Source: Hirudinaria manillensis
Lineage: Eukaryota > Annelida > Clitellata > Hirudinida > Hirudinidae
DNA length: 64,000 nucleotides
Reading direction: 5' to 3'
Assembly: GCA_034509925.1 (NCBI GenBank)
Contig: CM067526.1
Location: 8,886,244 to 8,950,243, forward strand
Shown here: positions 2,648-64,000 of the stretch, in pieces
How positions within the stretch are numbered: the stretch's first letter is position 1
How the letters are laid out: each line of letters starts with the position of its first letter
The notes under the pieces: model-generated
The model's database searches: none
What the model was told of the DNA's origin: nothing
What the model saw: only the letters and a program-made list of their open reading frames with translations
Translations under genes and position numbers: made by a program

Positions 2648-3131
2648 GAATTTTCCGTTCTATGAATTTTCTAGCGATGAATTTTCCGGATACCCCGTAG
2701 GCATCCATGGGTTGCATTGTCCTTAACGTAAATAGTTCAATAACCCTTTGATCTTGTTAAAAATAAATAACAATAACATAAAATAATTTCATTAATTTTA
2801 TAAATAAGCTGATCAAATATGCTGTAAAACCAAACGATTATCCGAAACGACATCTATTTTTCATTGCTGGTAATTGGATCACAAACTCAGCCAGATAATT
2901 GGACTATCAAAATAGATGTGGGCTGCACCAGATATCAAATCGTTTAAAGTGTGTTTGTTCCTCTAGTGCTTTTAGGCTTATTCCTTTTAGCGTTGGGCAT
3001 AATTTTCATTTTAGAAGAATTAAACAGAGTCATGGTGAGCATAAAACAATTTTTTTTTTGAAAATAATTTAAACTGGCTCACAAACAAGCACTGATTCCG
3101 TTTCGGTTATTCTTAACCATATTCTTTTCAG
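2648..3131. other. 5' flank of the neuroglian gene
   Basis: AT-rich sequence with no coding signal. It ends in the splice acceptor TATTCTTTTCAG at about 3120-3131. Any 5' untranslated exon or promoter would lie in or upstream of this stretch; I cannot pick one out. Confidence 0.5.
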
Positions 3132-3204
3132 ATGATGATATTGTTGGAGATTATTAGTTTTTCACTGATAAGCTCTAGTAGCAAATACAAAAAGGAATAT
3201 ACCA
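3132..3204 (+). CDS. Nrg: Nrg exon 1: signal peptide
   Basis: ATG is the first codon after a consensus acceptor (TTTTCAG). The exon encodes a hydrophobic leader, MMILLEIISFSLISSSSKY, then KKEYT, and ends before GTATGT in phase 1. The A left over joins GT of exon 2 to give serine. Confidence 0.8.
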
Positions 3205-15200: not shown

Positions 15201-18200
15201 GGGATCCAACAATATGCAGAGCGACAAGAAAGGACACATTGTGCCTAGCAAATCATGTTGAGAAAAACTCCGTTTTTACTATAATAACTATGTGTTTTTT
15301 ATACGACATGATCAATGACAGAATGCAGCTATTTCTGAACATTTATGTCAATAAAATAACGCATGTGTCAAGCATAATGTATTTGATTGACCCAAATCTT
15401 GTGTGATGCCACCCGCACTTTTTCTTCTAAGCACAGTTTTTATCTTCTACATTTTCAGATCGACGAAATTTGTACAGTATTCCTTGAATTTGAACTGATA
15501 TGCCCACTTCTTTTTACTTGCTTTAAAATTGATATGTGGACGTTCAAATCTTGCGATCGTTTTTTCGATCAAATACTAAATGAGCTGAAATACCATCAAA
15601 TTTATGTCCTTTGGACAACACATGAATCAAGTTTTGACGTTTAAATTTGAAAAATTAACGTTCAAAACTTTCTAAATGATTCTCTCTAGATCCCGAGGTC
15701 CAAATGAGCTGAAATTTACTTGTATTTTGGATCACATTACACGAATCATAAACTTTAATTTCGTTCAATTTTAAAATAAATAAATACACGACTACAATAC
15801 TATATGACAAATATTAAAAACTTCTGACACCTAGGGAGTATGAGAAGTAACTATAGTAACTAGTTTACACTATAGTAACTATAATTATAAAGCAGATTAT
15901 GCTCAATTTTTTTTATAAACTTGCGACCTAATTTAGACTTTAATTCCTTTTATTTTTGACGAAACTATTATCGGATTTCAATGTGTACTGTTTTGCAACG
16001 TGTACCAAAGGAACTTAGTTTGCTTCAAGTATTTCAATCTACGAAATGATCAGCGGCATAGTATTTAGGGCAAAAGGATGGCTTATAGCTTCCTCGTTAC
16101 AGTAGTTTCTATGTCCGCTACTGGAGGAAAACCTTGGTCTTCCGGTCCCATATCCAGGCCTTTGGCCTCATCGACTCGGATTCCTGCGGTCGTGAAGTCC
16201 ATTTGGTCGGTCACGTCCGTTGATATCAGATGATAACATTGTGTAACAAGGTTTTTGGCGTCAGTTGTTATTTCGTAGCTAAGGTTGGCGTTGCAGAAAG
16301 TACCTATTGTAACTTTATTTTTTCTACCAGCCCATCAAAAGTTAAAATAAATGATCATGTTCAATTGTTTAGCTTCATACATTACTGTAAGAGTCAAGAT
16401 ATTAAAATTAAAGTGGACTTGCTCTCTGGACAGGACTACGATTATGTTTTTAGTCACTTTCTCGAAAGTGTTTCCATCACCAAAAAGACATACCTCGATC
16501 TCTCAATTCTCGACTCAATCGAGGCACGTACAATTCATCCAAGTACCGCCGCATCCTTCACTTTTCAACTAAACAAGCTTCTACCTTAGTTACTCTTGGA
16601 TCCCATTTAACTCTAAATCCCACTCCTGACACCAAATTTAATAACCCGGTGTCCTCAAACTAATTATAGAAGGTCAGGTTTATTGAAAGTGTTCGGATGG
16701 CTTGGAAGATGTACAATGCTTAATTGTCTAAGTCTTGGAATCTGCTGTTTCTCTTACTCTCGCTCTGCTTTTCGAGATAACTCTATTTGTTGAGGTTCAT
16801 AACTAAAGACTCTGGATAGTGCCCTGAACATTAATTAATTATGAAATTAATTAATTAGCAATATAATTTTAAATATTCTTTAATTAACTGGATCCAGGGA
16901 TCCAACAATATATATATATAGACCTGCTTGAGCAAAACGATTTTCTAAATTAAAATTAACGTCAAAAATTTTCAAGAAAAAGTTAAAAAGAAAAAATTGG
17001 CATATTATATGATTGCTCATTAGCATAATACTCATTATACTGAGCGATGTTTGACAGATAATTTGTGTTCATCATAGCACGTGTCTTATGACAACCACTT
17101 CGAATGTCGAGCCCATAACAAATATGGAGAAAAAGAAGTAATGTTTTTCGTTAGTGCTAAGAGTATGATTTTTAAATTATTAAATGATTTACTAGGTTAT
17201 TAAGTATGAAATTTCCTTTTTGAAAAATAGAATATGAAATTTTTATTTTATCGTACAATTTCCAATGCAATTACTTGCTATTTTCGTCCGAATAAATTTA
17301 GAAGATTTTATTGGCTATTGAGCTTGCAAGAATTTGAAGTCTAGAATTTGAAGTTTTTATTCTACGAAGTCTTTCTTGATTAAACGAGTCGAAAAATCCA
17401 AAAGAGTGGAAACGCTACTTAAGATGTATATGCGTTGACTGACCTAGAATACTTTTGACGAACTTTACAGAACACTATGATTAGCTTTAGAAGTTATTTT
17501 TCAGGCTAATGACATATGCTTAATTGTTAATTTATCCAATTTTGTTTTTAATGTTAGTTGAAGAGAAATACTTCTAGGAAATATGATTAATGAACATTGT
17601 CGAATAAATTTTGTTATTTACGATCCACCCTAGGAGTCAATCGTTTAAAATCGGTTAGAGATCGACTTTATTTAAATAGTTTTCCGTTATGTGTGAAAAC
17701 AAATGGCAGTCTCCAAGCTGCTTTTTACTGAAATGCATTGGATACTCGAGTGTATAATTCTCAAGCTTTAATTTTACTTTTTTAATTCAAAATTGACGAT
17801 TGTGTTATTCTCTTCCATTCTTGCTGCTAAATGTCACATTTTTTGACATATGTCACATCTTTGGATGGATTCATTTCCACTATCCAGTGCGTTAATCATT
17901 CACTTTTGACTTGAGACTGTTGGTACTATAAATCCTAAATCCTGTGGGTTATGTTTGGATTTTTGAGGGCCACTTCCATAACGAAAATGCGTTTAGTGTT
18001 GTTTTTGCACCTACTATAGTGCTGATAATTTTATAAATAATTTTAGTTGATCAACTCGTTCAGATTCCTCAGAAATCAATTCTGGGAATTGCCATTCAGT
18101 GATTGGATTTTATGTTCTAGATAGAGAAAGAACTAGCTACTTCACGAACAGCATTGTACAACAACATATGGCATAGAAGATTAGGCCATATGTACAGACA

Positions 18201-21200
18201 TTCACTTAATCACTTGACTAAGAGTGTGGCCACTGGTTTTCGGATAAAAGGAGGCAAAACTAACCTTCGTAAGGCTGAAGCAATTTGTCTTCTACTCGAA
18301 CTCACGTCTAGTACTCCAGATTTTAGTCAAGACAACAAAGGAACAGTAGATCTTGGATCCTGTTTTTCGACCAAAAACAAAGCATATAAGAATTCAACAT
18401 CACTTTGCCAGAGAGTGCTTAGGTGATATCCAAGTTGAAAGAGTGGCCACAGATGAAACGACATACTCACTGAGTGTGGCAAGGGAAACAAAACGCCAAG
18501 TGCAGAACATAGATGGGCATGTCTGAAATCAATTACCTTGTAAAGTAGGGAATTATAAATAATAAATCCTTAGATCCTTGTAATTTTTGGATTTCAAGGA
18601 CGACTTCTCTACTGCGTGTCTCTTAATGTGATTTTGGCAGCATGACCGTTATAATATTGATAAATAAAATATATTTATTTTCTGCAAATCAAAGAGCAAA
18701 GCAACAAAAATTTCCATTAGAGACCATGAGACGCATCTTATATCAAAACTGAACTAAAGACTCTCCTGGACGTCACCATCGCGGACCTGTGCATATTTCT
18801 AACTGAAATGCATTTCATAAAAGATCTCATATGTTAGCATGGAAAGAATTTTTGTGTATCGAAGTTTTCGCAAATATTTACCTCATATGTAGTAAAAAAT
18901 TCTTAAGGATACTCACTACAGCAAAGTCATAGAAATCAACTGTCAAACTTCGTTTCATACCTAATAGCCTAGTAATTTATCTTTACATTTTGTAAATTTA
19001 TTTTTGAAATTCAGATAAAACAAAAGTTAAACTTACTTCAAGCAATACTTTTGCTTATGAGGGAGAAGAATTAATCTTGTATTGTTCAATACAAGCTGAG
19101 GAATTACCTTTTTCAATAAACGTTACATGGTCGAAAAATGGGTTTGATTTGAGTCCTGATCTTACTAAAGAAATAAAGGCAAAGCAAAAACATTCTTTAT
19201 CAATCAATCCCGCTAAACTGAGTGATGGAGGTTTATATACTTGTAATGCTTCAACTTCATATGATTGGGGTGCAGATTCAAAGCAAATATTTGTAAGAGG
19301 TTAGATGATAATTAATGTATAATGAATCATGTATAAACAATTAATTATGCCACCATTTAAATTGCAACTTCTTAAAATAAACAATCAGGTCCTCCATTGC
19401 CACCTAAAATCATGCAAGTCTCAAATTGTTCTTCTCTAAACGCAGTTGTTTCATGGATCGATCACGGAACATATTTAGATCCAGTGATTGAGTATTTAAT
19501 CTTTAGGAAATCGTCTTATGATGACACTTATACGACTTTTGCCACTTCCAGGTATGTAACTGACTATTTTTTTCAAAGATAAACTTTTAAATTTTTTATA
19601 TAATGAATGAATTAACAGCTTAAATACAATATATTTATAAGCTGCATATAAAGCAATTCTAGTCACAAGTATAACTAAGGAAAATTTTCGACATCAGTAT
19701 TTATTTCTATTGCGGTAACTTTATTCACACACCAAGAACGGCGAAACAACAACAAGGAAGGGCGGGACCAAAAAAAAAACATTAAAATAATAACTCGAAC
19801 TATTTTAACAAAACAAGTTTTTTAAACATAAAAAACTCAACACCTTCTCATTTTGTTAAAATCCACCGAATTATTATTTAAGTCCCATTCTGTCCTTCAG
19901 CATGTTCAGCCTATCTTCACTAACTGGTTTTGTCAAGATGTCTGCAATCTGAAATTCTGATGAGACTCTTTTGACACACACATCGCCTTCTGTGACTTTT
20001 TCTCTGATGAAAAAATGTCTTGTCTTGATGTGCTTGGTTCTTTTGTGATATTCTGGATTCTCATCTAGTTTAACTGCAGCTTCGTTATCAACGTAAATTT
20101 CTGGTTTGTTAAAATATCCAGTAATGCCCTCTAACAATCTTTTCAACCAAATTCCTTCTCTAGTAGCTTCACTTGCAGCAACTACTTCTGCTTCAGTCGT
20201 CGATATGGCTACTGACGTTTGTCTTTGACTAAACCAACTGATAGCACCTCCAGAATAAATACAAACAACACCCGACGTAGATCTTCCCGTGGTAGTGTCT
20301 CCTCTAGGTTTCTAGAAACATTACTAACTGCATACGCTGCCAGGTCTTGTACTTGTCATTAGGTACATTAATGCGCCTACCGCTGATCTATATGGAAATT
20401 TGATCTCGTTTTGATCATCACGAACATCATCTGCCTTCTCAGATTTAATAATGGGTGTTGGACATGGGCGACATTCGTCCATTCCAAATTTCTCTAGAAT
20501 CTTTTGAGTAAAGTTTCTCTGAGTGATTTTTATTGAGCCATCAGATTTTTTGTTGATTTCAATTCCAAGAAAGAATGTAGCTGGTTTAGCAACAATTTTG
20601 AATTCTTTCTCTAATTTCTGCTTGAAATCTCTAAGATCTGATTCAGACGAGGCTGCAACAATTCCATCGTCGACATACAAAGCAACTAAAATTTTGCAAT
20701 GCTTTTTCTTTTGAATGAAAAGACAAGGATCTGCATCACTTTTCACAAAACCAAGATTCAACGAAAAATTTCCAAAACGTTTGTTCCAACATCTCGGAGC
20801 TTGCTTTAGTCCATTCAAACTTCTCTTGAGTTTGCATACCTTTTTAGAACCATCATCACCGTTTTGCTGAGGTGTGTACGGTGCTATCAGTCTTTGCGTG
20901 ATTCCATGACTGCGAAGGATATTTAGAACTTCGTCATTGTCGAATTCACCCCCATTGTCACTCAAAAATTCTTTCACATTATGGCCTTGACACTTTGCTG
21001 TAGCCAGAACCTCCTAAAGTGCTTGCTTGACTTCAGCTTTCTGTCTGATGAATGTGATGAATCTCATTTTACTGAAATGATCTTTGAAGACAACAAAATA
21101 TCGTTTTCTGTTAAACGATTCTCCACTGAAAGGACCACAGACATCTGCTGATAGGAGTTCACCTGGTTTACTGGTGGCATTCCTTCTTCCAAACTTTAAT

Positions 21201-24200
21201 CTATGAGATAGATGCAAGGTTCACATATCTCTGTATCAAGCTGAACATTGATGTTCAATTCTCTCTTTACAAGTTTTTTTACATGACGTTTGTCTTGGTG
21301 TCCAAATCGTTCATGATACAATTGAATTAGTGAACATTCACTGACTAGGTTTACCTCGGCTGGAGTTTCAGGACTAATAAGTGCTATCAGTCCCGCTTCG
21401 TATAAGGTACCATTTAACTGTATTGTCCCTTGAATAACTATTTTGCCCTGAATTCTTAAGCATCACTTTGTGGCAGTTGACTGAAACTTGCTCTGTAAAT
21501 TTTTGTCTTGAGCAGCTAGAACTGAGAAGAGATTTCTACTCAAACTCGGAACATATCAGACATCTGACAAGGTTAGTTCCTGTTGCTTATTGCTTGTTGT
21601 GACCAAAGTTTTCACTGTGCCTTTACCTACAGCAGGAAGAACCTCTTTTCCTGCAGTTTGTACCGTGTGTGGTACAGCAAACTTTTCGAAAGTTTCAAAA
21701 TTGTCTGAACTATTTGTTATGTGTTTCATTACTCCATTATCTATGAACCACTTATCATGAGTCTTAGCTGAAGATGCCTCGGTGATTGATGAGCACAATA
21801 CTGCATTCAATGTTTCACCATGACTTGTTCTGGATGATGCTGTTGCAGAATTCTTTGCAGGTCTTCCATCGGCGATCCACTTGCTGCACTGCTTTACCCA
21901 ATGACCAGCTCCATGACAGTAATTACAGTTGCCGACTTGCTTCTTCTTAAATGTCCTTGGCTTCTCAGACATTTGTTTCTGTTTTGAGGTGTTGGCAACT
22001 AGAATGTCATGCTGAGCTGAGTGTCATATCTGTCTTTAACTCTCTTTCAAACATGCACAGCTGAGTAACTAGTTCATCTAATGATTTCTTTTCATCACTT
22101 AGCATTAGCCAACTTGACTTGAAGATTTGGAAACTGATTGGCAGTATATGCATCACTTTGCATATTATTATTATTATTATTATTATCACATAAAGGCACG
22201 GGCGAACCCCTCGCCTAACACAAATTACTTAAGTAAACAAAAAGCAAAACCCTCCACATATCAAACAAACAATAAAACAACCAGTCACATCAAATATTTA
22301 CAATCCCCAAAAAAATCATCCAATAACATTTTGAAGATGTCCAGGTTTGGAGCACCGACAACCGACCGATATGAGCAACATCTCTGGTAATTTCTTTTCT
22401 CCTGCTTCTTGAAGACCACTATTTAGCTCGTTCCAAAGTGTTTTTAGTTTAGCTACTTGGCCTGAAACATCTACATTTGATATCCAACCAAAACTGAAAA
22501 ACTCACTGCAAATTTGAAAAAGCTGGTCTCTGGCTGATGCTTTAAAACTTCTTTTTAGCTCCTCCCAGACTTCTCTTGCAGTCTCTCTATCCATTATTTT
22601 CTGGTAGGTTTCTTCTGAGACAGCATTGGCTATAACTGATTTGACATAACTGTTAGCCTTTCTGAACTTATCTGAGATTTCTTTGTGAGCCTTTCTTTGT
22701 TCTTCTGTGGGATTTTCTGCTAGTTCGGATCTCAACAGTTTGCCATCGATAACGTCATCGTGATAGTCGATGTAGTCTCGAATTCGACGCTTCCACATCG
22801 GCCAATCAGTCGTGCACCTCAATGGCTTTATCTTTATTCCCATCGAGTCCATTTGACGTTATTTAAAAAACAGCACTGCTAATGTTAGAACTGACTTCAG
22901 AAAACTTTAACTTAGCGCTCGGGGAGCTCTGGTCCCATAACCTATTGCGGTAACTTTACTCACACACCAAGAACGCGAAACAACAACAAGGAAGGGCGGG
23001 ACCAAAAAAAAAAAACATTAAAATAACTCGAACTATTTTAACAAAACAAGTTTTTTAAACATAAAAAACTCAACAATTTCAATATTTAAATTTCGATTAT
23101 AACTAATGATTATTAATTGTGGCTGCTTTATTACATGATCCTGCTGGAGGACATTAATTTAAGAACTAGTGACACAATTATCGATTTGCAGCGTTAAATC
23201 CGAGCATCGTTCGATTCGGATGATCAGAACTTATAAAAACTACAAAATAGCATTTCAGGACCGCCTTAGACATGGGAACATCCGTTGTTAAAACGAATAA
23301 ATGTTTTTTTGGGCGCATCGAAACCACGCTTTGTGAAATTCTATAATATTGTAATAACCCGGGGTCCTCAAACTAATTATAGAAGGTCAGGTTCATTGAA
23401 AGTGTTCAGATGCCTTGGAAGATGTACAATGCTCAAATGTCTAAGTCTTGAAATCTGCTGTTTCTCTAACTCTCGCTCTGCTTTTCAAGATAAATCTATT
23501 TGTCTAGATTCATAACCAAAGACTCTGAATAGTACCAATTAATTAATTCTCAAATTATATTGCCACTCAATTTAATTAATTACTAAATTAATTAATCAGC
23601 GATATAATTTTAATTATTCTTCAATTATCTGGATCCAGGGATCCAACAGTATGTTCTAATTAAGTATTATATTTTACAGCAGAATACTAAAAGCTCATTT
23701 TTTACTAAATGCTTGGACAAACTATTCTTTCTACATTCGTTCAAGAAATATATTTGGACTCAGTTTACCCAGTTCGTTCAGTACAAATAATTGTTCAACT
23801 CCTTCTCGGAAACCAAACATTAATCCCACTGATGTGTGTGGGGAAAGTAGGGATCCAAACCTTCTTGTGATTACATGGAAGGTAATGGTAGCTAGATCTT
23901 TAATGCGGTTTATAAATAAAGTAATTTTTACGAAGAAAAATGCGAATTATTCTTACAACTTTGCTTATAACTAATCATTTTCGATGATTATAGGCTGTTC
24001 ATCCTCGTTACCATTTTGGAGAAAATTTTCATTATATATTAAAATTCAAGAATCTTTCTCACCCCCAAAAGAAACATTTAATTTTAAAATTTAATGGGTC
24101 AGCAACTGAGGCTATGATAAGAAATGCAGGAATATATTTGCCTTACAAAGTTTGGATTCATTCTTCTAACTTAAAAGGTGACGCCTCTTTTAATAAGAGT

Positions 24201-48685: not shown

Positions 48686-48885
48686 NNNNNNNNNNNNNNN
48701 NNNNNNNNNNNNNNNNNNNNNNNNNNNNNNNNNNNNNNNNNNNNNNNNNNNNNNNNNNNNNNNNNNNNNNNNNNNNNNNNNNNNNNNNNNNNNNNNNNNN
48801 NNNNNNNNNNNNNNNNNNNNNNNNNNNNNNNNNNNNNNNNNNNNNNNNNNNNNNNNNNNNNNNNNNNNNNNNNNNNNNNNNNNNN
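48686..48885. other. assembly gap of 200 N
   Basis: Exactly 200 N, probably an arbitrary gap size. The tandem array begins on its right side in mid-unit, so more units may be hidden. Confidence 0.99.
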
Positions 48886-51800
48886 ATAATAAGGTGGCCA
48901 GTTACATTCATTGGGGTTCGTATGCAGTGAGCAAGGATGTGAAGTTCCAAAGAAATGCGGTACCAAAAAATGCCGTCTGTTTGTGACAAAAATATAAATA
49001 AAGATATCGCACCATCTCAGGGGCATACGCATTTATCACGGACATGGAAAATATTGGCCAACATTGTCATCGATGACAGGAGATCCAAGTTGTACATGCT
49101 AAGTGATGTGTCAGTCCCGGATTGATAAAAACATCGAGCCTTGAAGAAGCTGAAGAAGAATAGCAAAAATAAGGACCTGGAGATTGAAATTAACCGGCAT
49201 GGGGATTGTGAAGTCTAAAGTAATTGTAGGAGCGCTCGAAACGATAGAAAAAGACTTTGCAAATGGTTGTGTAGACGAGAACTCTGCCAGGACGACCAGA
49301 GATCATCGGAGATTCAGAAGATCTCACTGCCCACAATCTTCGGAGAGTTCTTTGGCGAATCGCTGAGAGCTCAGCATTCATGCCTCACCGGCAATGAAGC
49401 CGATAAGTTAAACAAAATGACCGTAATAACCAGAAAAGCCACGGTTCAAAACACCGGTACGGGACAGTATTTTTGCTTATCGTTGTTTTTGCTTCGAATT
49501 TCTATCGAATTTGTGTCCCCCCCTGCTAACATTTTTAATGATTGGTGAGTGTAACTTCCGACAAAGAAAAGGGAAATACATAAATCTGGTGAAGTGAATA
49601 CGAACAGTTTCTTTTTGCTTTGTCATTTCGTTGAAACATCGCAGTTTGCAAAGGAATTCGTAACAAGTTTGTTCAAGTTTATTGGTTTTTGGTTTCAAAA
49701 ATGTTTGAAAAACTTTTAGGTCACGAGACTAAGGAAACTTTACGTTTATAAAAAACGTGTATTTTGTAACAGCGAAAGCGTTTAAAACCAAGAAAGTTCA
49801 TAAAGAGCGCAATTCTGCGGCTCTGAGTTCAAAACAGACGCGAGGATTAAAAATTCATCCACAAAAATATCATTGCCCATTCAAGTTGAAATTTATATAT
49901 GCGGTGGCAAAAATTGAACTTGAACTAAAAGCAAGGAAGGTTGCAAGGTGTAAACATTGAAGCACACAAAAAAGCGCAACACTAAATCATCAGGATAATC
50001 GCCATACCCCTTGAGGACCAGCCAATTCCTACCGGAGATGATGGTGATGAGCCGAAACGTCGCCAGGTTTGAAAAGAAAAGACCTACTGTGGCCATACAT
50101 AGATCGTGCCTCAAATCACTTTCAATAACTTTCAAGTTCGAAAAAATCAGAAATAAATAAATCAGATATAGCCAGTTATCTTCATGCCGTCGTAATGTAC
50201 TGCTTGTTCCGTCGAAAGAACCAGTAAACTGGTGGACACAGCAATTTATTTGAAAATAGCTAAGAATGCAACCATCTTTTCTAGCCGTCGCAGCTCGGGC
50301 AATTCAACAGATAAGAAACACTCAGACAAGAGACGTCTTGTAAGACAAGGAAATCTTGAAATAGACAGAAAATCTCTCCTCAAACGGCTCAAACAATCCA
50401 CCCAAAAGATCCGTCGAAAAGAACGAATCACAAACAATGCCAAAGGTCGAAAGTTTTTGAAAGCAAAAAAGAACTGAAAACTATTGAAAGGCAGAGACAA
50501 AGAAAAGTATTCAAGATTTGTTCAGGAAGAATCCGGCAGCAGTGGCATGGGCATTGTTGACAGAGGAATTCAAAGACAAATCAAAGGCAACTCCAGGAAA
50601 AGAATTGCTTGAGTCTTATTGGTAGCAAGTTTTCTCAGAAACGTCAATTGAAGATGATAGACAGTCGTTGGCATACAGAAGTATGGTTTAGAATTGCGTA
50701 GCCAGCAATTAGGTGAACTCTGCTATTCGAGATCTCCGCATCAGGACACGACTCTTTATTTGGACATAGAACATTGGATATTGACTTTGCAGTTCACAAG
50801 TCACTGTGGCTACTAGCCGGTTGTCCTCCGTCTTCGTCCAAAATCGGTATCGTCACATGCATTCCAAAAATAAGTGGAGCCACCAACCCGAGAGATCCAT
50901 TGCAGTGAGTCCAATCATTGGTCGACTCTTTCATAGGATCCTCCACATCGGATGACCTCCTTCGTTCCTTTGTTTCCGTGCCAGATGGTCTGGCAGGAAG
51001 AAGAGGGAACTGAAAAAGTTAAACTTCACTTTTATGAAAGACGTGTCTAAAGCGTTTCATTCGGTAACTCATTAATCAATCAAACAGTTGGGTTCAAATC
51101 GAGACTGCAGACGGAATCAGTAATCGCATTCAAGTGGGCAGAGGCGTCAAAGCAAGGAGATCCAACGCTTATTGATATGATCCTTAGCCAAATGGATAGG
51201 AGAAGTTGCCCGAAATTAAATGCTTTTTAATTTACCTTTGCTTATGACATTCTTGCTGATGTCTACAACGGACTACAGTTTGTTGTTGGAATACAGATGC
51301 TGCTTCAACTACTTGAAGGAGGAATGTCAAAAGTGGGATTAGCGAGGAGAATCCAACCAAGTGCGCTTCTCTACGCACCGAGATAACATCGCAAAAAGAT
51401 CGTGGAAAAAGAATCTTGACAACGGAAGCACTGCATCAAATATCGTTGAAACCTACAAATATCTCGGTATCGAGATTGGAGCACGATTATAACAATTATC
51501 AACAGCAGACAAAATTCAAAAAGACCTATAACTCCATTTAGCGCGCCCCTTGGGACCGCATCAGCAAGTCTGTATTCTCAGAACTCATCTATTGCCTGGC
51601 ATTGTGGAGAACGCTCCCAATGCATTCCTGGATGTCCCAGCCGACTAAGAGATCCCGGAATGCTTCAACTTTGGAAATGGATTCCGAATACAAGAAAATC
51701 GTCGAATATTGAGCAAACGCCATTGGTCCTAGCGAATGGCGCTAATCGATGAAATGATCTCAGGTCAATGGATCAACTGCGTGAAGGTTAGAGCCGAGAT

Positions 51801-51988
51801 CCTACACAACTTATCGCGGAATCGAGAGACAAGCTGTATTTGAGCACTCTGCCGGACTGAGGAAGTGGCTGGGCCCTAGTATACAAGCGGTGCCATGTCA
51901 CCGATGGTCCAAGACATGTCAGGCATAAATCCATTTTTGACAATGTTAGGTTTCACTGTGCTAGTAGCAATTGAATATTTGCACCGAC
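48886..51988 (+). mobile_element. tandem LINE array, unit 1
   Basis: Starts in the endonuclease part (RHNKVASYIHW point of the other units). Contains the C-terminal domain, then a spacer, zinc finger-like region, and reverse transcriptase, in the same order as unit 2. 3103 bp. The first 1.6 kb carry many single-base insertions relative to the other units; from about 50500 on it agrees closely with them. The polymerase catalytic spot reads FAYDILAD. Confidence 0.85.
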
Positions 51989-54983
51989 ATAATAAGGTGG
52001 CCAGTTACATTCATTGGGTTGTATGCCGTGAGCAAGGATGTGAAGTTCCAAAGAAATGGTACCAAAAATGTGTGGACAAATATAAATAAAGAATTGCACC
52101 ATCTCATGGGACCTACGCATTTATCACGGACAGGAAAATATTGGCCAACATTGTCATCGATGACAGGAGATCCAAGTTGTACATGCTAATTGATGTTTCA
52201 GTCCCGGATTGATAAAAACATCGAGCTTGAAGAAGCTGAAGAAATTAGCAAATATAAGGACCTGGAGATTGAAATTAACCGGATGTGGATTGTGAAGTCT
52301 AAAGTAATTGTAGGAGCGCTCCGAACGCTAAGAAAAGACTTTGCAAATGGTGTAGAGAGAACTCTGCCAGGACGACCAGAGATATCGGAGATTCAGAAGA
52401 TCTCACTGCCCACATTCTTCGGAGAGTTCTTTGGCGAATCGCTGAGAGCTCAGCATTCATGCTCACCGGCAATGAAGCCGATAAGTAGCCGTAATAACCA
52501 GAAAAGCCACGGTCAACACCGGTACGGACGTATTTTTTCTTATCGTTGTTTTTGCTTCGAATTCTATCGAATTTGTGTCCCCTGCTAACCTTTTTATGAT
52601 TGGTGAGTGTAACTTCCGAAGAAAAGGGAATAATAAATCTGTGAATTGAATAACACAGTTTCTTTCCTTTTTCATTTCGTTGAAACATCGCAGTTTGCAA
52701 AGGAATCGTAACAAGTTTGTTCAATTTATTGGTTTTTGGTTTCAAATGTTTGAAACTTTTGGTCACGAGACTAAGAACTTTACGTTATAAAAACGTGTAT
52801 TTGGAACAGCGAAAGCGTAAACCAAGAAAGTTCATAAAGAGCGAATTCTGCGGCTCTGAGTTCAAAACAGAGCGAGGATTAAAAATTCATCAAAATATCA
52901 TGCCCATCAAGTTGAATCTATATATGCTGGCAAAAATTGAACTTGAACTAAAGCAAGAAGGTTGCAAGTGTAAACATTGAAGCACAAAAAAAGCGCCAAC
53001 ATAAATCATCAGGATAATCGCCATACCCCTTGAGGACAGCCAATTCCTACCGGAGATGATGGTGATGAGCGAACGTCGCCAGGGTTTGAAAAGAAAGAAC
53101 TCTGGCCATACATAGAATCGTGCCTCAATCAATTTCAATAACTTCAATTCGAAAAATCAGAAATAAATAAATCAGATATAGCCAGTATCTTAATGCCGTC
53201 GTAATGTAATGCTTGTTCCGTCGAAGACAGTAAACGGTGACAGCAATTTATTTTGAATCGCTAAGAATGCAACCATCTTTCTAGCCTTGCAGCTCGGCAA
53301 TTCAACAGATAAGAAACACTCAGCAAGAGAGTCTTGTAAGACAAGGAATTTCTTGAAATAGACAGAAAATCTCTCCTCAAAACGCTCAACAATCCACCCA
53401 AAAGACGTCGAAAAGAACGAATCAAAACAATGCCAAAGGTCGAAAGTTTTTGAAGCAAAAAAGAACTGAAAACTATTGAAAGGCAGAGACAAAGAAAAGT
53501 AATTCAAGATTTGTTCAGGAAGAATCCGGCAGCAGTGGCATGGGCATTGTTGACAGAGGAATTCAAAGACAAATCAAAGGCAACTCCAGGAAAAGAATTG
53601 CTTGAGTATTATTGGTAGCAAGTTTTCTCAGAAAAGTCAATTGAAGATGATAGACAGTCGTTGGCATACAGAATTTTTTTTTAGAATTGCGTAGCCAGCA
53701 ATTTGGTGAACTCTGCTGTTCGAGATCTCCGCATAAGTACACGACTCTTTATTTGGACATAGAACATTGGATATTGACTTTGCAGTTCACAAGTCACTGT
53801 GGCTACTAGCCGGTTGTCCTGCGTCTTCGTCCTAATTCGGTATTCGTCACATGCATTCCAAAAATAAAGTGGAGCCACCAACCCGAGAGATCCATTGCAG
53901 TGAGTCCAATCATTGGTCGACTCTTTCATAGGATCCTCCACATCGGATGACCTCCTTCGTTCCTTTGTTTCCGTGCCAGATGGTCTCGTCAGGAAGAAGA
54001 GGGAACTGAAAAAAGTTAAACTTCACTTTTATGAAAGACGTGTCTAAGCGTTTCATTCGGTAACTCATTAATCAATCAAACAGTTGGGTTCAAATCGAGA
54101 CTGCAGACGGAATCAGTAATCGCATTCAAGTGGGCAGAGGCGTCAAAGCAAGGAGATCCAACGCTTATTGATATGATCCTTAGCCAAATGGATAGGAGAA
54201 GTTGCCCGAAATTAAATGCTTTTTAATTTACCTTTGCTTATGACATTCTTGCTGATGTCTACAACGGACTACAGTTTGTTGTTGGAATACAGATGCTGCT
54301 TCAACTACTTGAAGGAGGAATGTCAAAAGTGGGATTAGCGAGGAGAATCCAACCAAGTGCGCTTCCTCTACGCACCGAGATAACATCGCAAAAAGATCGT
54401 GGAAAAAGAATCTTGACAACGGAAGCACTGCATCAAATATCGTTGAAAACCTACAAATATCTCGGTATCGAGATTGGAGCACGATTATAACAATTATCAA
54501 CAGCAGACAAAATTCAAAAAGACCTATAACTCCATTTAGCGCGCCCCTTGGGACCGCATCAGCAAGTCTGTATTCTCAGAACTCATCTATTGCCTGGCAT
54601 TGTGGAGAACGCTCCCAATGCATTCCTGGATGTCCCAGCCGACTAAGAGATCCCGGAATGCTTCAACTTTGGAAATGGATTCCGAATACAAGAAATCGTC
54701 GAATATTGAGCAAACGCCATTGGTCCTAGCGAATGGCGCTAATCGATGAAATGATCTCAGGTCAATGGATCAACTGCGTGAAGGTTAGAGCCGAGATCCT
54801 ACACAACTTATCGCGGAATCGAGATACAAGCTGTATTTGAGCACTCTGCCGGACTGAGGAAGTGGCTGGGCCCTAGTATACAGCGGTGCCATGTCACCGA
54901 TGGTCCAAGACATGTCAGGCATAAATCCATTTTGACAATGTTAGGTTTCACTGTGCTAGTAGCAATTGAATATTTGCACCGAC
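51989..54983 (+). mobile_element. tandem LINE array, unit 2
   Basis: 2995 bp. Open pieces: 52190-52588 (DKNIELEEAEEISKYKDLEI and EINRMWIVKSKVIVGALRTL, the conserved LINE C-terminus), 52717-52980 (CGSEFKTERGLKIH, zinc finger-like) and 54293-54490 (EALHQISLKTYKYLGIEIG, polymerase motif after the catalytic site). The nuclease motif lacks RPD. A run of T at 53673 replaces AGTATGGTT of the other units. Confidence 0.88.
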
Positions 54984-57976
54984 ATAATAAGGTGGCCAGT
55001 TACATTCATTGGGTTGTATGCCGTGAGCAAGGATGTGAAGTTCCAAAGAAATGGTACCAAAAATGTGTGACAAATATAAATAAAGAATTGCACCATCTCA
55101 TGGGACTACGCATTTATCACGGACAGGAAAATATTGGCCAAACATTGTCATCGATGACAGGAGATCCAAGTTGTACATGCTAATTGATGTTTCAGTCCCG
55201 GATTGATAAAAAACATCGAGCTTGAAGAAGCTGAAGAAATTAGCAAATATAAGGACCTGGAGATTGAAATTAACCGGATGTGGATTGTGAAGTCTAAAGT
55301 AATTGTAGGAGCGCTCCGAACGCTAAGAAAAGACTTTGCAAATGGTGTAGAGAGAACTCTGCCAGGACGACCAGAGATATCGGAGATTCAGAAGATCTCA
55401 CTGCCCACATTCTTCGGAGAGTTCTTTGGCGAATCGCTGAGAGCTCAGCATTCATGCCTCACCGGCAATGAAGCCGATAAGTAGCCGTAATAACCAGAAA
55501 AGCCACGGTCAACACCGGTACGGACGTATTTTTTCTTATCGTTGTTTTTGCTTCGAATTCTATCGAATTTGTGTCCCCTGCTAACCTTTTTATGATTGGT
55601 GAGTGTAACTTCCGAAGAAAAGGGAATAATAAATCTGTGAATTGAATACAACAGTTTCTTTGCTTTGTCATTTCGTTGAAACATCGCAGTTTGCAAAGGA
55701 ATTCTTGTAACAAGTTGTTCAATTTATTGGTTTTTGGTTTCAAATGTTTGAAACTTTTGGTCACGAGACTAAGAACTTTACGTTATAAAAACGTGTATTT
55801 GGAACAGCGAAAGCGTAAACCAAGAAAGTTCATAAAGAGCGAATTCTGCGGCTCTGAGTTCAAAACAGAGCGAGGATTAAAAATTCATCAAAATATCATG
55901 CCCATCAAGTTGAATCTATATATGCTGGCAAAAATTGAACTTGAACTAAAGCAAGAAGGTTGCAAGTGTAAACATTGAAGCACAAAAAAAGCGCCAACAT
56001 AAATCATCAGGATAATCGTCATACCCCTTGAGGACAGCCAATTCCTACCGGAGATGATGGTGATGAGCGAACGTCGCCAGGGTTTGAAAAGAAAGAACTC
56101 TGGCCATACATAGAATCGTGCCTCAATCAATTTCAATAACTTCAATTCGAAAAATCAGAAATAAATAAATCAGATATAGCCAGTATCTTAATGCCGTCGT
56201 AATGTAATGCTTGTTCCGTCGAAGACAGTAAACGGTGACAGCAATTTATTTTGAATCGCTAAGAATGCAACCATCTTTCTAGCCTTGCAGCTCGGCAATT
56301 CAACAGATAAGAACACTCAGCAAGAGAGTCTTGTAAGACAAGGAATTTCTTGAAATAGACAGAAAATCTCTCCTCAAACGCTCAACAATCCACCCAAAAG
56401 ACGTCGAAAAGAACGAATCAAAACAATGCCAAAGGTCGAAAGTTTTTGAAGCAAAAAAGAACTGAAAACTATTGAAAGGCAGAGACAAAGAAAAGTAATT
56501 CAAGATTTGTTCAGGAAGAATCCGGCAGCAGTGGCATGGGCATTGTTGACAGAGGAATTCAAAGACAAATCAAAGGCAACTCCAGGAAAAGAATTGCTTG
56601 AGTATTATTGGTAGCAAGTTTTCTCAGAAAAGTCAATTGAAGATGATAGACAGTCGTTGGCATACAGAAGTATGGTTTAGAATTGCGTAGCCAGCAATTA
56701 GGTGAACTCTGCTATTCGAGATCTCCGCATCAGGACACGACTCTTTATTTGGACATAGAACATTGGATATTGACTTTGCAGTTCACAAGTCACTGTGGCT
56801 ACTAGCCGGTTGTCCTCCGTCTTCGTCCTAATTCGGTATTCGTCACATGCATTCCAAAAATAAGTGGAGCCACCAACCCGAGAGATCCATTGCAGTGAGT
56901 CCAATCATTGGTCGACTCTTTCATAGGATCCTCCACATCGGATGACCTCCTTCGTTCCTTTGTTTCCGTGCCAGAGCGTCTGGCAGGAAGAAGAGGGAAC
57001 TGAAAAAGTTAAACTTCACTTTTATGAAAGACGTGTCTAAAGCGTTTCATTCGGTAACTCATTAATCAATCAAACAGTTGGGTTCAAATCGAGACTGCAG
57101 ACGGAATCAGTAATCGCATTCAAGTGGGCAGAGGCGTCAAAGCAAGGAGATCCAACGCTTATTGATATGATCCTTAGCCAAATGGATAGGAGAGGTTGCC
57201 CGAAATTAAATGCTTTTTAATTTACCTTTGCTTATGACATTTCTTGCTGATGTCTACAACGGACTACAGTTTGTTGTTGGAATACAGATGCTGCTTCAAC
57301 TACTTGAAGGAGGAATGTCAAAAGTGGGATTAGCGAGGAGAATCCAACCAAGTGCGCTTCTCTACGCACCGAGATAACATCGCAAAAAGATCGTGGAAAA
57401 AGAATCTTGACAACGGAAGCACTGCATCAAATATCGTTGAAACCTACAAATATCTCGGTATCGAGATTGGAGCACGATTATAACAATTATCAACAGTAGA
57501 CAAAATTCAAAAAGACCTATAACTCCATTTAGCGCGCCCCTTGGGACCGCATCAGCAAGTCTGTATTCTCAGAACTCATCTATTGCCTGGCATTGTGGAG
57601 AACGCTCCCAATGCATTCCTGGATGTCCCAGCCGACTAAGAGATCCCGGAATGCTTCAACTTTGGAAATGGATTCCGAATACAAGAAATCGTCGAATATT
57701 GAGCAAACGCCATTGGTCCTAGCGAATGGCGCTAATCGATGAAATGATCTCAGGTCAATGGATCAACTGCGTGAAGGTTAGAGCCGAGATCCTACACAAC
57801 TTATCGCGGAATCGAGATACAAGCTGTATTTGAGCACTCTGCCGGACTGAGGAAGTGGCTGGGCCCTAGTATACAGCGGTGCCATGTCACCGATGGTCCA
57901 AGACATGTCAGGCATAAATCCATTTTGACAATGTTAGGTTTCACTGTGCTAGTAGCAATTGAATATTTGCACCGAC
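54984..57976 (+). mobile_element. tandem LINE array, unit 3
   Basis: 2993 bp. Same layout; C-terminal ORF 55203-55484, zinc finger-like ORF 55676-55978, polymerase words IPKISGATNPRDP near 56850. An extra A in GGCCAAACATTG shifts the nuclease frame and RPD is missing. Confidence 0.88.
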
Positions 57977-60962
57977 ATAATAAGGTGGCCAGTTACATTC
58001 ATTGGGTTGTATGCCGTGAGCAAGGATGTGAAGTTCCAAAGAAATGGTACCAAAAATGTGTGACAAATATAAATAAAGAATTGCACCATCTCATGGGACT
58101 ACGCATTTATCACGGACAGGAAAATATTGGCCAACAGACCTGACATTGTCATCGATGACAGGAGATCCAAGTTGTACATGCTAATTGATGTTTCAGTCCC
58201 GGATTGATAAAAACATCGAGCTTGAAGAAGCTGAAGAAATTAGCAAATATAAGGACCTGGAGATTGAAATTAACCGGATGTGGATTGTGAAGTCTAAAGT
58301 AATTGTAGGAGCGCTCCGAACGCTAAGAAAAGACTTTGCAAATGGTGTAGAGAGAACTCTGCCAGGACGACCAGAGATATCGGAGATTCAGAAGATCTCA
58401 CTGCCCACATTCTTCGGAGAGTTCTTTGGCGAATCGCTGAGAGCTCAGCATTCATGCCTCACCGGCAATGAAGCCGATAAGTAGCCGTAATAACCAGAAA
58501 AGCCACGGTCAGCACCGGTACGGACGTATTTTTTCTTATCGTTGTTTTTGCTTCGAATTCTATCGAAATTTGTGTCCCCTGCTAACCTTTTAATGATTGG
58601 TGAGTGTAACTTCCGAAGAAAAGGGAATAATAAATCTGTGAATTGAATACAACAGTTTCTTTGCTTTGTCATTTCGTTGAAACATCGCAGTTTGCAAAGG
58701 AATTCTTGTTACGAAGTTTGTTCAATTTATTGGTTTTTGGTTTCAAATGTTTGAAACTTTTGGTCACGAGACTAAGAACTTTACGTCATAAAAACGTGTA
58801 TTTGGAACAGCGAAAGCGTAAACCAAGAAAGTTCATAAAGAGCGAATTATGCGGCTCTGAGTTCAAAACAGAGCGAGGATTAAAAATTCATCAAAATATC
58901 ATGCCCATCAAGTTGAATCTATATATGCTGGCAAAAATTGAACTTGAACTAAAGCAAGAAGGTTGCAAGTGTAAACATTGAAGCACAAAAAAAGCGCCAA
59001 CATAAATCATCAGGATAATCGCCATACCCCTTGAGGACAGCCAATTCCTACCGGAGATGATGGTGATGAGCGAACGTCGCCAGGGTTTGAAAAGAAAGAA
59101 CTCTGGCCATACATAGAATCGTGCCTCAATCAATTTCAATAACTTCAATTCGAAAAATCAGAAATAAATAAATCAGATATAGCCAGTATCTTAATGCCGT
59201 CGTAATGTAATGCTTGTTCCGTCGAAGACAGTAAACGGTGACAGCAATTTATTTTGAATCGCTAAGAATGCAACCATCTTTCTAGCCTTGCAGCTCGGCA
59301 ATTCAACAGATAAGAACACTCAGCAAGAGAGTCTTGTAAGACAAGGAATTTCTTGAAATAGACAGAAAATCTCTCCTCAAACGCTCAACAATCCACCCAA
59401 AAGACGTCGAAAAGAACGAATCAAAACAATGCCAAAGGTCGAAAGTTTTTGAAGCAAAAAAGAACTGAAAACTATTGAAAGGCAGAGACAAAGAAAAGTA
59501 ATTCAAGATTTGTTCAGGAAGAATCCGGCAGCAGTGGCATGGGCATTGTTGACAGAGGAATTCAAAGACAAATCAAAGGCAACTCCAGGAAAAGAATTGC
59601 TTGAGTATTATTGGTAGCAAGTTTTCTCAGAAAAGTCAATTGAAGATGATAGACAGTCGTTGGCATACAGAAGTATGGTTTAGAATTGCGTAGCCAGCAA
59701 TTAGGTGAACTCTGCTATTCGAGATCTCCGCATCAGGACACGACTCTTTATTTGGACATAGAACATTGGATATTGACTTTGCAGTTCACAAGTCACTGTG
59801 GCTACTAGCCGGTTGTCCTCCGTCTTCGTCACATGCATTCCAAAAATAAGTGGAGCCACCAACCCGAGAGATCCATTGCAGTGAGTCCAATCATTGGTCG
59901 ACTCTTTCATAGGATCCTCCACATCGGATGACCTCCTTCGTTCCTTTGTTTCCGTGCCAGATGGTCTGGCAGGAAGAAGAGGGAACTGAAAAAGTTAAAC
60001 TTCACTTTTATGAAAGACGTGTCTAAAGCGTTTCATTCGGTAACTCATTAATCAATCAAACAGTTGGGTTCAAATCGAGACTGCAGACGGAATCAGTAAT
60101 CGCATTCAAGTGGGCAGAGGCGTCAAAGCAAGGAGATCCAACGCTTATTGATATGATCCTTAGCCAAATGGATAGGAGAGGTTGCCCGAAATTAAATGCT
60201 TTTTAATTTACCTTTGCTTATGACATTTCTTGCTGATGTCTACAACGGACTACAGTTTGTTGTTGGAATACAGATGCTGCTTCAACTACTTGAAGGAGGA
60301 ATGTCAAAAGTGGGATTAGCGAGGAGAATCCAACCAAGTGCGCTTCTCTACGCACCGAGATAACATCGCAAAAAGATCGTGGAAAAAGAATCTTGACAAC
60401 GGAAGCACTGCATCAAATATCGTTGAAACCTACAAATATCTCGGTATCGAGATTGGAGCACGATTATAACAATTATCAACAGTAGACAAAATTCAAAAAG
60501 ACCTATAACTCCATTTAGCGCGCCCCTTGGGACCGCATCAGCAAGTCTGTATTCTCAGAACTCATCTATTGCCTGGCATTGTGGAGAACGCTCCCAATGC
60601 ATTCCTGGATGTCCCAGCCGACTAAGAGATCCCGGAATGCTTCAACTTTGGAAATGGATTCCGAATACAAGAAATCGTCGAATATTGAGCAAACGCCATT
60701 GGTCCTAGCGAATGGCGCTAATCGATGAAATGATCTCAGGTCAATGGATCAACTGCGTGAAGGTTAGAGCCGAGATCCTACACAACTTATCGCGGAATCG
60801 AGATACAAGCTGTATTTGAGCACTCTGCCGGACTGAGGAAGTGGCTGGGCCCTAGTATACAGCGGTGCCATGTCACCGATGGTCCAAGACATGTCAGGCA
60901 TAAATCCATTTTGACAATGTTAGGTTTCACTGTGCTAGTAGCAATTGAATATTTGCACCGAC
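57977..60962 (+). mobile_element. tandem LINE array, unit 4
   Basis: 2986 bp. C-terminal ORF 58185-58484, zinc finger-like ORF 58643-58981. Here the nuclease motif is complete at the DNA level: GCCAACAGACCTGACATTGT reads ANRPDIV, followed by IDDRRSKLYMLIDVSVP. About 18 bp of units 2-3 near 59828 are missing. Confidence 0.88.
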
Positions 60963-63900
60963 ATAATAAGGTGGCCAGTTACATTCATTGGGTTGTATGC
61001 CGTGAGCAAGGATGTGAAGTTCCAAAGAAATGGTACCAAAAATGTGTGACAAATATAAATAAAGAATTGCACCATCTCATGGGACTACGCATTTATCACG
61101 GACAGGAAAATATTGGCCAACAGACCTGACATTGTCATCGATGACAGGAGATCCAAGTTGTACATGCTAATTGATGTTTCAGTCCCGGATTGATAAAAAC
61201 ATCGAGCTTGAAGAAGCTAAAGAAATTAGCAAATATAAGGACCTGGAGATTGAAACTAACCGGATGTGGATTGTGAAGTCTAAAGTAATTGTAGGAGCGC
61301 TCCGAACGCTAAGAAAAGACTTTGCAAATGGTGTAGAGAGAACTCTGCCAGGACGACCAGAGATATCGGAGATTCAGAAGATCTCACTGCCCACATTCTT
61401 CGGAGAGTTCTTTGGCGAATCGCTGAGAGCTCAGCATTCATGCCTCACCGGCAATGAAGCCGATAAGTAGCCGTAATAACCAGAAAAGCCACGGTCAGCA
61501 CCGGTACGGACGTATTTTTTCTTATCGTTGTTTTTGCTTCGAATTCTATCAAATTTGTGTCCCCTGCTAACCTTTTTATGATTGGTGAGTGTAACTTCCG
61601 AAGAAAAGGGAATAATAAATCTGTGAATTGAATACAACAGTTTCTTTGCTTTGTCATTTCGTTGAAACATCGCAGTTTGCAAAGGAATTCTTGTAACGAA
61701 TTGTTCAATTTATTGGTTTTTGGTTTCAAATGTTTGAAACTTTTGGTCACGAGACTAAGAACTTTACGTTATAAAACGTGTATTTGGAACAGCGAAAGCG
61801 TAAACCAAGAAAGTTCATAAAGAGCGAATTCTGCGGCTCTGAGTTCAAAACAGAGCGAGGATTAAAAATTCATCAAAATATCATGCCCATCAAGTTGAAT
61901 CTATATATGCTGGCAAAAATTGAACTTGAACTAAAGCAAGAAGGTTGCAAGTGTAAACATTGAAGCACAAAAAAAGCGCCAACATAAATCATCAGGATAA
62001 TCGTCATACCCCTTGAGGACAGCCAATTCCTACCGGAGATGATGGTGATGAGCGAACGTCGCCAGGGTTTGAAAAGAAAGAACTCTGGCCATGCATAGAA
62101 TCGTGCCTCAATCAATTTCAATAACTTCAATTCGAAAAATCAGAAATAAATAAATCAGATATAGCCAGTATCTTAATGCCGTCGTAATGTAATGCTTGTT
62201 CCGTCGAAGACAGTAAACGGTGACAGCAATTTATTTTGAATCGCTAAGAATGCAACCATCTTTCTAGCCTTGCAGCTCGGCAATTCAACAGATAAGAACA
62301 CTCAGCAAGAGAGTCTTGTAAGACAAGGAATTTCTTGAAATAGACAGAAAATCTCTCCTCAAACGCTCAACAATCCACCAAAAGACGTCGAAAAGAACGA
62401 ATCAAAACAATGCCAAAGGTCGAAAGTTTTTGAAGCAAAAAAGAACTGAAAACTATTGAAAGGCAGAGACAAAGAAAAGTAATTCAAGATTTGTTCAGGA
62501 AGAATCCGGCAGCAGTGGCATGGGCATTGTTGACAGAGGAATTCAAAGACAAATCAAAGGCAACTCCAGGAAAAGAATTGCTTGAGTATTATTGGTAGCA
62601 AGTTTTCTCAGAAAAGTCAATTGAAGATGATAGACAGTCGTTGGCATACAGAAGTATGGTTTAGAATTGCGTAGCCAGCAATTAGGTGAACTCTGCTATT
62701 CGAGATCTCCGCATCAGGACACGACTCTTTATTTGGACATAGAAACATTGGATATTGACTTTGCAGTTCACAAGTCACTGTGGCTACTAGCCGGTTGTCC
62801 TCCGTCTTCGTCCAAATTCGACAAATTTTTAATAAATTGACCAATAAAATAAATAATTTTAATAGTTTTAATAGTTTACATAATTTAAGCAATTTAACGT
62901 TCTAAATATTATTTTTTAATAATAATTTAAATAATTCGAACAATTTCACAGACCTGAGTGTCAGGATTCGTCACATGCATTCCAAAAATAAGTGGAGCCA
63001 CCAACCCGAGAGATCCATTGCAGTGAGTCCAATCATTGGTCGACTCTTTCATAGGATCCTCCACATCGGATGACCTCCTTCGTTCCTTTGTTTCCGTGCC
63101 AAGCGTTTCGTCAGGAAGAAGCAGGAACTGAAAAAGTTAAACTTCACTTTTATGAAAGACGTGTCTAAAGCGTTTCATTCGGTAACTCATTAATCAATCA
63201 AACAGTTGGGTTCAAATCGAGACTGCAGACGGAATCAGTAATCGCATTCAAGTGGGCAGAGGCGTCAAAGCAAGGAGATCCAACGCTTATTGATATGATC
63301 CTTAGCCAAATGGATAGGAGAGGTTGCCCGAAATTAAATGCTTTTTAATTTACCTTTGCTTATGACATTTCTTGCTGATGTCTACAACGGACTACAGTTT
63401 GTTGTTGGAATACAGATGCTGCTTCAACTACTTGAAGGAGGAATGTCAAAAGTGGGATTAGCGAGGAGAATCCAACCAAGTGCGCTTCTCTACGCACCGA
63501 GATAACATCGCAAAAAGATCGTGGAAAAAGAATCTTGACAACGGAAGCACTGCATCAAATATCGTTGAAACCTACAAATATCTCGGTATCGAGATTGGAG
63601 CACGATTATAACAATTATCAACAGCAGACAAAATTCAAAAAGACCTATAACTCCATTTAGCGCGCCCCTTGGGACCGCATCAGCAAGTCTGTATTCTCAG
63701 AACTCATCTATTGCCTGGCATTGTGGAGAACGCTCCCAATGCATTCCTGGATGTCCCAGCCGACTAAGAGATCCCGGAATGCTTCAACTTTGGAAATGGA
63801 TTCCGAATACAAGAAATCGTCGAATATTGAGCAAACGCCATTGGTCCTAGCGAATGGCGCTAATCGATGAAATGATCTCAGGTCAATGGATCAACTGCGT

Positions 63901-64000
63901 GAAGGTTAGAGCCGAGATCCTACACAACTTATCGCGGAATCGAGATACAAGCTGTATTTGAGCACTCTGCCGGACTGAGGAAGTGGCTGGGCCCTAGTAT
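60963..64000 (+). mobile_element. tandem LINE array, unit 5, cut by window end
   Basis: Same layout; C-terminal ORF 61171-61470, zinc finger-like ORF 61778-61963. RPD is present as in unit 4. It carries an AT-rich insertion at about 62821-62963. The window ends about 110 bp before the unit would close, so the array may continue. Confidence 0.88.
62821..62963. repeat. AT-rich insertion in array unit 5
   Basis: About 143 bp built from AATTT/AATAATTT words, absent from the other four units. It lies between TTCG and GATTCGTCAC of the unit sequence. Confidence 0.75.

Follow-up and report, generated by a model that had tools for sequence, protein, structure and literature searches.

The 64,000-nucleotide stretch of Hirudinaria manillensis DNA analysed here (the window; C1:8886244-8950243 of a 148.4-Mb genome in 23 contigs) ends in a tandem array whose ~3-kb unit is a decayed chimera of two LINEs. 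An R2-like LINE (LINE1) contributed ~82% of the unit, from its 5' part, and a second LINE (LINE2) ~18%, from its 3' end. The units share most of their lesions, and the array occurs in three assembled copies that differ in unit number and are each homogenised. Very probably, a LINE1/LINE2 hybrid formed, died and was amplified as DNA, and the arrays were then homogenised.

The window array (arr1) comprises five head-to-tail units from 48886 to 64187 (C1:8950430), the right end lying 187 bp beyond the window; unit borders were set at the start of the LINE 5' UTR. Self-BLAST and a repeat search revealed same-direction self-matches over 48886-64000 at offsets of ~2986-3142 with 91-99% identity. The self-comparison found no foreign sequence between the units, as the initial annotation had described. 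The features of the array are as follows:

48686..48885, no strand: scaffold gap of 200 N left of arr1 (N run)
48886..49438, + strand: incomplete copy ahead of unit 1, holding the 3' part derived from LINE2, at the noisy end of the contig
49439..52506, + strand: unit 1 (arr1_1), 3068 bp
52507..55502, + strand: unit 2, 2996 bp
55503..58502, + strand: unit 3, 3000 bp
58503..61488, + strand: unit 4, 2986 bp
61489..64187 (in the window to 64000), + strand: unit 5, 2699 bp, shortened by the flank
62821..62965, + strand: AT-rich 145-bp insert in the last unit

The second copy, arr2 (C1:7347947-7363726, minus strand, 15,780 bp), has five units and no N between its flanks, and the third lies on C15 (C15:119094-157980, 38,887 bp, ~13 units). 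Among the scored matches, the unit was not found elsewhere than in these three copies: each unit part has 23 matches within them, and matches of >150 bp elsewhere are only 70-83% identical (best ~40 candidates scored). The right flank is common to all three (C15:157981-161145, 99%), and the left flank to arr2 and C15 (C15:118630-119084, 97%), with ~1.65 kb extra in arr2. Unit position 1165 is the starting point of both arr2 and the C15 array, and position 1225 the end point of all three copies, thus both ends are closed in arr2 and C15. The array had initially been taken as open at both ends; this holds on the left within the window, where arr1 meets the 200-N gap, but not in arr2 and C15, nor on the right, where arr1 stops at 64187. 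Just outside the ends lie scrambled short pieces. Two of those on the left have a match in the unit (E 1e-5 and 5e-4). For the pieces on the right, the top unit match is not significant (E 0.07), but two of them align to LINE1 (E 9e-5 and 1e-3). In neither the unit nor the LINE1 search did any of the 50 control pieces reach E 1e-3. The 145-bp insert is present in 5/5 arr2 units and one arr1 unit, with no match in the C15 array and a relative (89%) at C1:3348906 (7/7 candidates scored).

The surroundings of arr1 and arr2 are long inverted near-copies. Within the stretches compared, the match spans 29.1 kb (96.1%) for the array end together with flank Y, and 11.5 and 13.1 kb (96.9 and 97.3%) for a block X; each region contains a 200-N gap. 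C15:1-1564 corresponds to window 7004-8500 (93%), and C15:36231-41232 to block X. The block order on C15 agrees with the left part of the window, X lying left of the array, and in the C1:7.3-Mb region X stands on the opposite side of a 200-N gap. The three copies may be unmerged haplotypes (alleles) or true duplications. As an observation in its own right, block X (window 22635-46997) has a ~97% inverted near-copy 1.6 Mb away at C1:7298501-7323043, partly present on C15 as well, which is one of three things: a haplotype duplication, a scaffold error or an inverted duplication. In addition, repeat blocks of ~200-900 bp, some direct and some inverted, cluster at window 10073-23653; one pair of them (13326-13623 and 14914-15211) is 100% identical.

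The left end of arr1 is noisy. The first five 200-base bins of arr1_1 contain 12-19 insertions, 0-1 deletions and 3-19 substitutions each relative to the other units, a pattern that stops near 50440; the first ~1.5 kb (48886 to ~50440) is probably unpolished contig-end sequence, an assembly error. At 180 differing columns, C15 agrees with LINE1 at 123, arr1_1 agrees with LINE1 at 18 and neither does at 39. Because these differences are mostly derived, mostly insertions, and fall in a probable unpolished contig end, the 91% identity of this stretch is probably not real divergence. The reading of the leading left piece as an ancestral, less deleted form was ruled out by the same prevalence of derived differences (123 against 18 columns).

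The initial annotation regarded the unit as a complete LINE carrying its own R2-like endonuclease. Instead, the unit joins two LINEs: similarity to LINE1 runs from the 5' UTR through LINE1 base ~4158, with ~840 bases of the R2-like ORF deleted, and switches at unit position ~1104 to a LINE2 3' end. The last ~540 bp, including the KYKDLEIEINRMW end, thus belong to the other LINE family. In unit 2 the parts are arranged as follows:

52507..54945, + strand: LINE1-derived (R2-like) part with 5' UTR, C2H2-region remnant, RT remnant and CCHC remnant (alignment to the intact relative L041)
54940..54955, + strand: chimera junction, GTTAGG/TTT/CACTGTG
54949..55486, + strand: LINE2-derived part, last ~170 ORF codons (RLE region, KYKDLEIEINRMW) and 3' UTR (80-83% identity to dispersed LINE2 copies)
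55487..55502, + strand: border of units 2 and 3 with TAA remnant, GTAATAACCAGAAAAG

An intact relative of LINE1, L041 (C1:7241000-7246500, minus strand), encodes a 1144-aa ORF with a C2H2-like CEFCGSEFKTERGLKIHQNH and FADD. Its C-terminus aligns to R2Bm up to residue 1131; against the R2Bm structure 8gh6 the match covers residues 416-1131 (phmmer, E 2.7e-110), and RVT_1 scores 4.3e-30. By this RT and endonuclease homology over the C-terminal two thirds, the LINE1 part is classed as an R2-type LINE, placed among R2/HERO/NeSL by homology rather than by a tree. In the one copy inspected it does not sit at the 28S rRNA target of R2 proper, as L041 lies between (TAA)n tracts. The LINE2 copy L014 (C8:2418000-2427900) has an 1184-aa ORF with YMDD, an RVT_1 match (1.2e-31) and KYKDLEIEINRMW near the ORF end; TAA tracts lie on both sides of it, and TAA also follows the LINE2 matches in L015 and L016. 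The YMDD motif marks R4/Dong elements. LINE2 is a second endonuclease LINE that may be R4/Dong-like, and PMC3774820 associates Dong with TAA. The two ORFs (L041 and L014) share 25% identity over 421 aa of the RT region.

Six unit fragments searched against Pfam gave no family reaching its curated cut-off. In a search up to E 1 for a 5'-end ribozyme, such as the HDV-like one that marks hybrid SIDEs, neither the array nor L041 nor L014 had a ribozyme match in Rfam, although R2 ribozymes may be too diverged for the Rfam models; a CrcZ match to L014 was rejected as a TAA run. Behind the L014 copy (L014:6762-7372), ~600 bp of (TAA)n give way to (GATAAT)n and (GACAAT)n repeats that are open in a frame encoding a DN repeat.

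A search for dispersed single copies, as the initial annotation had proposed, recovered the parent-type LINEs and not the hybrid. Many places in the genome carry LINE2 3' ends, 80-83% identical to the unit (38 scored of 482 and 40 of 406 candidates), and LINE1 relatives are likewise dispersed (40 scored of 113 and 40 of 88 candidates). For a 181-bp junction probe, 40 of 280 candidate matches were scored: 23 are full-length, all inside the three arrays, and the other 17 begin at probe base 76-91. No junction-crossing copy outside the arrays, and hence none of the dispersed copies expected of a hybrid SIDE, was present among those 40. This result argues against the alternative that the hybrid was once a non-autonomous retrotransposon like the Drosophila R2/R1 SIDEs, with the array as its sole surviving remnant. 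That reading, which we consider unlikely, would account for the order of the parts, which is that of the R2/R1 hybrid SIDEs described in passages of PMC3414825 and found there inside tandem R1 arrays too, and for the retention of the LINE2 3' end to near its TAA tail. However, the unit also retains ~2.4 kb of LINE1, unlike the SIDEs described.

The lesions support an element that was dead first and then underwent DNA-level amplification and concerted evolution. Compared to the LINE1 ORF, a C15 unit carries 38 deletions (839 bases) and 12 insertions, and compared to LINE2 7 indels, giving 57 indel lesions in total against the parent types, 42 of them frameshifting. These were scored in 20 units (five from arr1, five from arr2 and 10 of the ~13 from C15). 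The last unit of each array is truncated. On C15, the scored sequence leaves out the first 331 bases of the array and two stretches inside it; three incomplete leading pieces and two pieces with N were also set aside. Every eligible unit carries 32/57 lesions, and all eligible units except the noisy arr1_1 carry 50/57. The remaining seven vary beyond arr1_1: a 9-bp loss is exact in 10/17 eligible units, deletions near LINE1 2730 and 2761 differ in arr2-type units, a length difference lies beside FAYD, two lesions are altered in one further unit each, and a 1-base deletion occurs in only 2/20 units. Two substitutions that the initial annotation had listed among the shared disabling changes are present in all units scored:

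54239..54241, + strand: D-to-Y change in the RT catalytic FADD, TTTGCTTATGAC (20/20 units)
56612..56614, + strand: in-frame TAG (TGG-TAG) after EYYW, unit 3 copy (20/20 units)

Because 50 lesions are common (bar the noisy unit) and the catalytic site is dead throughout, today's units trace back to a single unit that had already died. Substitution rates against LINE1 at codon positions 1/2/3 are 0.170/0.151/0.218, a pattern read as mostly decay plus some older constrained divergence. Since the third position is more diverged than the other two, L041 is a relative rather than a proven parent, and some differences may predate the hybrid. Microhomology at the deletion ends is not significant (mean, P = 0.27; count of ≥3 bp, P = 0.059).

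Each array has been homogenised, with changed unit number (5 against ~13) and fixed outer ends. Units differ by 0-13 substitutions within C15 and by 0-7 within arr2, compared to 22-29 between C15 and arr2, and a comparison of nine C15 units with four arr2 units yields 24 fixed differences. Within arr1, 24/24 of these sites are C15-type in unit 1 and 22/24 in unit 2; units 3 and 4 are mosaics of the two types, and unit 5 is mostly arr2-type. A simple misjoin of C15-type and arr2-type arrays is not favoured as the source of arr1, as units 3 and 4 switch type several times. The initial proposal of DNA-level amplification after the death of the element is thus borne out by the shared lesions, the array-wise homogenisation and the lack of other sequence between the units; independent mutations in each unit, named as evidence to the contrary, were looked for, and the lesions are mostly common rather than private.

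The same data bear on an array built by retrotransposition, either by repeated insertion into the TAA ending an older copy or as a head-to-tail concatemer that arose in a single step through template jumps of an R2-type enzyme. Drosophila provides models for both, as PMC2718515 explains tandem R1 arrays by new copies inserting into the target duplication of older ones, and PMC3414825 suggests R2-enzyme template jumps from junctions; moreover, a TAA remnant is present at the unit border. The common lesions (50/57 bar the noisy unit), the catalytic site dead in 20/20 units and the few substitutions within arrays nevertheless make this origin very improbable, and retrotransposition could at most account for a first duplication. 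That a single copy was inflated into an array during assembly is hardly credible: although arr1 adjoins a 200-N gap with a noisy left end, and the assembly probably derives from the HiFi reads of the published one (mean length 18.73 kb according to PMC10671345), shorter than the 38.9-kb C15 array, such an artefact would not yield 24 fixed differences between arrays, nor three assembled places that differ in unit number and contain private variants and mosaic units, among them the 15.8-kb arr2 that is N-free between its flanks.

The amplified dead hybrid very probably arose as follows. In this genome, (TAA)n microsatellites harbour both LINE1 and LINE2. At one site the 5' part of LINE1 was joined to the 3' end of LINE2, either through a deletion between two adjacent copies sharing a (TAA)n tract or through a template jump by the reverse transcriptase. 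Deletion is favoured by the L041 locus, where LINE1 is directly followed, within the same TAA tract, by an element resembling LINE2 (45% identity over 221 aa); a template jump is favoured by the jumps and R2/R1 hybrids reported for Drosophila in PMC3414825. The hybrid decayed by many small deletions, frameshifts and substitutions, as the shared lesions show, and was then multiplied as DNA, probably through unequal exchange begun between the flanking TAA tracts. We infer this first exchange from the TAA remnant at the unit border: GTAATAACC stands where LINE2 should enter its TAA tail and LINE1 start after TAA. The remnant is only two repeats long, which counts against the scenario. Unequal exchange together with gene conversion would explain both the change in unit number and the homogenisation.

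The array fits a low-copy ~3-kb tandem repeat of macrosatellite-like character, with head-to-tail units, variable number (5, at least 5 and ~13) and concerted evolution. Satellite, the term initially used, is too strong: satellite DNA in the usual sense forms long arrays with many copies at many or heterochromatic sites, whereas the scored matches revealed one locus type, assembled three times with ~5 to 13 units per array. The unit of the human D4Z4 macrosatellite is of kilobase size. With a retro-derived tandem unit of variable copy number (PMC3616921), D4Z4 resembles the leech array, but its retrogene codes for a transcription factor, whereas the leech array has no open LINE protein.

R1 is an APE-type LINE. 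A LINE as the monomer of a tandem repeat had been called unusual at first, yet PMC2718515 and PMC3414825 already describe head-to-tail arrays of LINEs and even one array of a fusion between two LINEs. In the literature searched, we found no closer precedent than the latter, a tandem R1/R2 fusion array of Drosophila simulans given in one sentence of PMC2718515. Like the leech array, it joins two LINEs 5' to 3' in tandem, away from the normal target. It differs in combining R1 and R2 in a fly, and the passages that mention it give no analysis of decay or of the array; the leech array combines two RLE LINEs in TAA microsatellites, in ~5 to 13 units with array-wise homogenisation. The Drosophila 28S tandem R1 arrays likewise consist of tandem LINE copies at a repeated target, with target sequence between them; passages of PMC2718515 and PMC3414825 hold that they grow by new insertions, whereas the leech units share most lesions. 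The R2/R1 hybrid SIDEs also combine the 5' part of one LINE with the 3' end of another, but according to passages of PMC3414825 they keep little beyond the R2 ribozyme and are taken as mobile, whereas the leech unit is 3 kb long, decayed and confined to arrays. Similar to the leech unit, the Hebe LINE of a bdelloid rotifer was inactivated by internal deletions and not by 5' truncation (PMC2861651); the Hebe deletions carry microhomology, of which the leech deletions have no significant excess, and the Hebe abstract mentions no such array. According to PMC4640811, which also cites a Repbase report on HERO elements of a leech, RLE LINEs target microsatellites.

The array encodes nothing workable as a LINE protein and most likely has no function. 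It is very doubtful that it is maintained for a role, such as producing antisense or small RNAs that target both LINE families, each of which has copies with an intact ORF; if so, one locus would provide a built-in, two-target silencing template of variable copy number. The locus displays readable steps from mobile element to tandem repeat, with two identifiable parent types that have intact relatives, shared lesions that place death before amplification, and three copies differing in unit number and homogenised variants. It also suggests that microsatellite-targeting LINEs may seed tandem repeats, because neighbours within one (TAA)n tract have repeats on either side. The array thereby adds an example and opens no new class of system.

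Two further observations concern the genome at large. A full-length COX1 match at C9:3026446-3027786 scores equal to the mitochondrial contig C23, whose COX1 protein reads as annelid, and reflects either a recent transfer of mitochondrial DNA to the nucleus or a misjoin. Moreover, a ~4-kb element at C1:7391986-7396167 (L026:3986-8167), edged by short tandem repeats, has full or partial copies of 96-100% identity at no fewer than 32 other places (33 scored of 403) and looks like a young mobile element.
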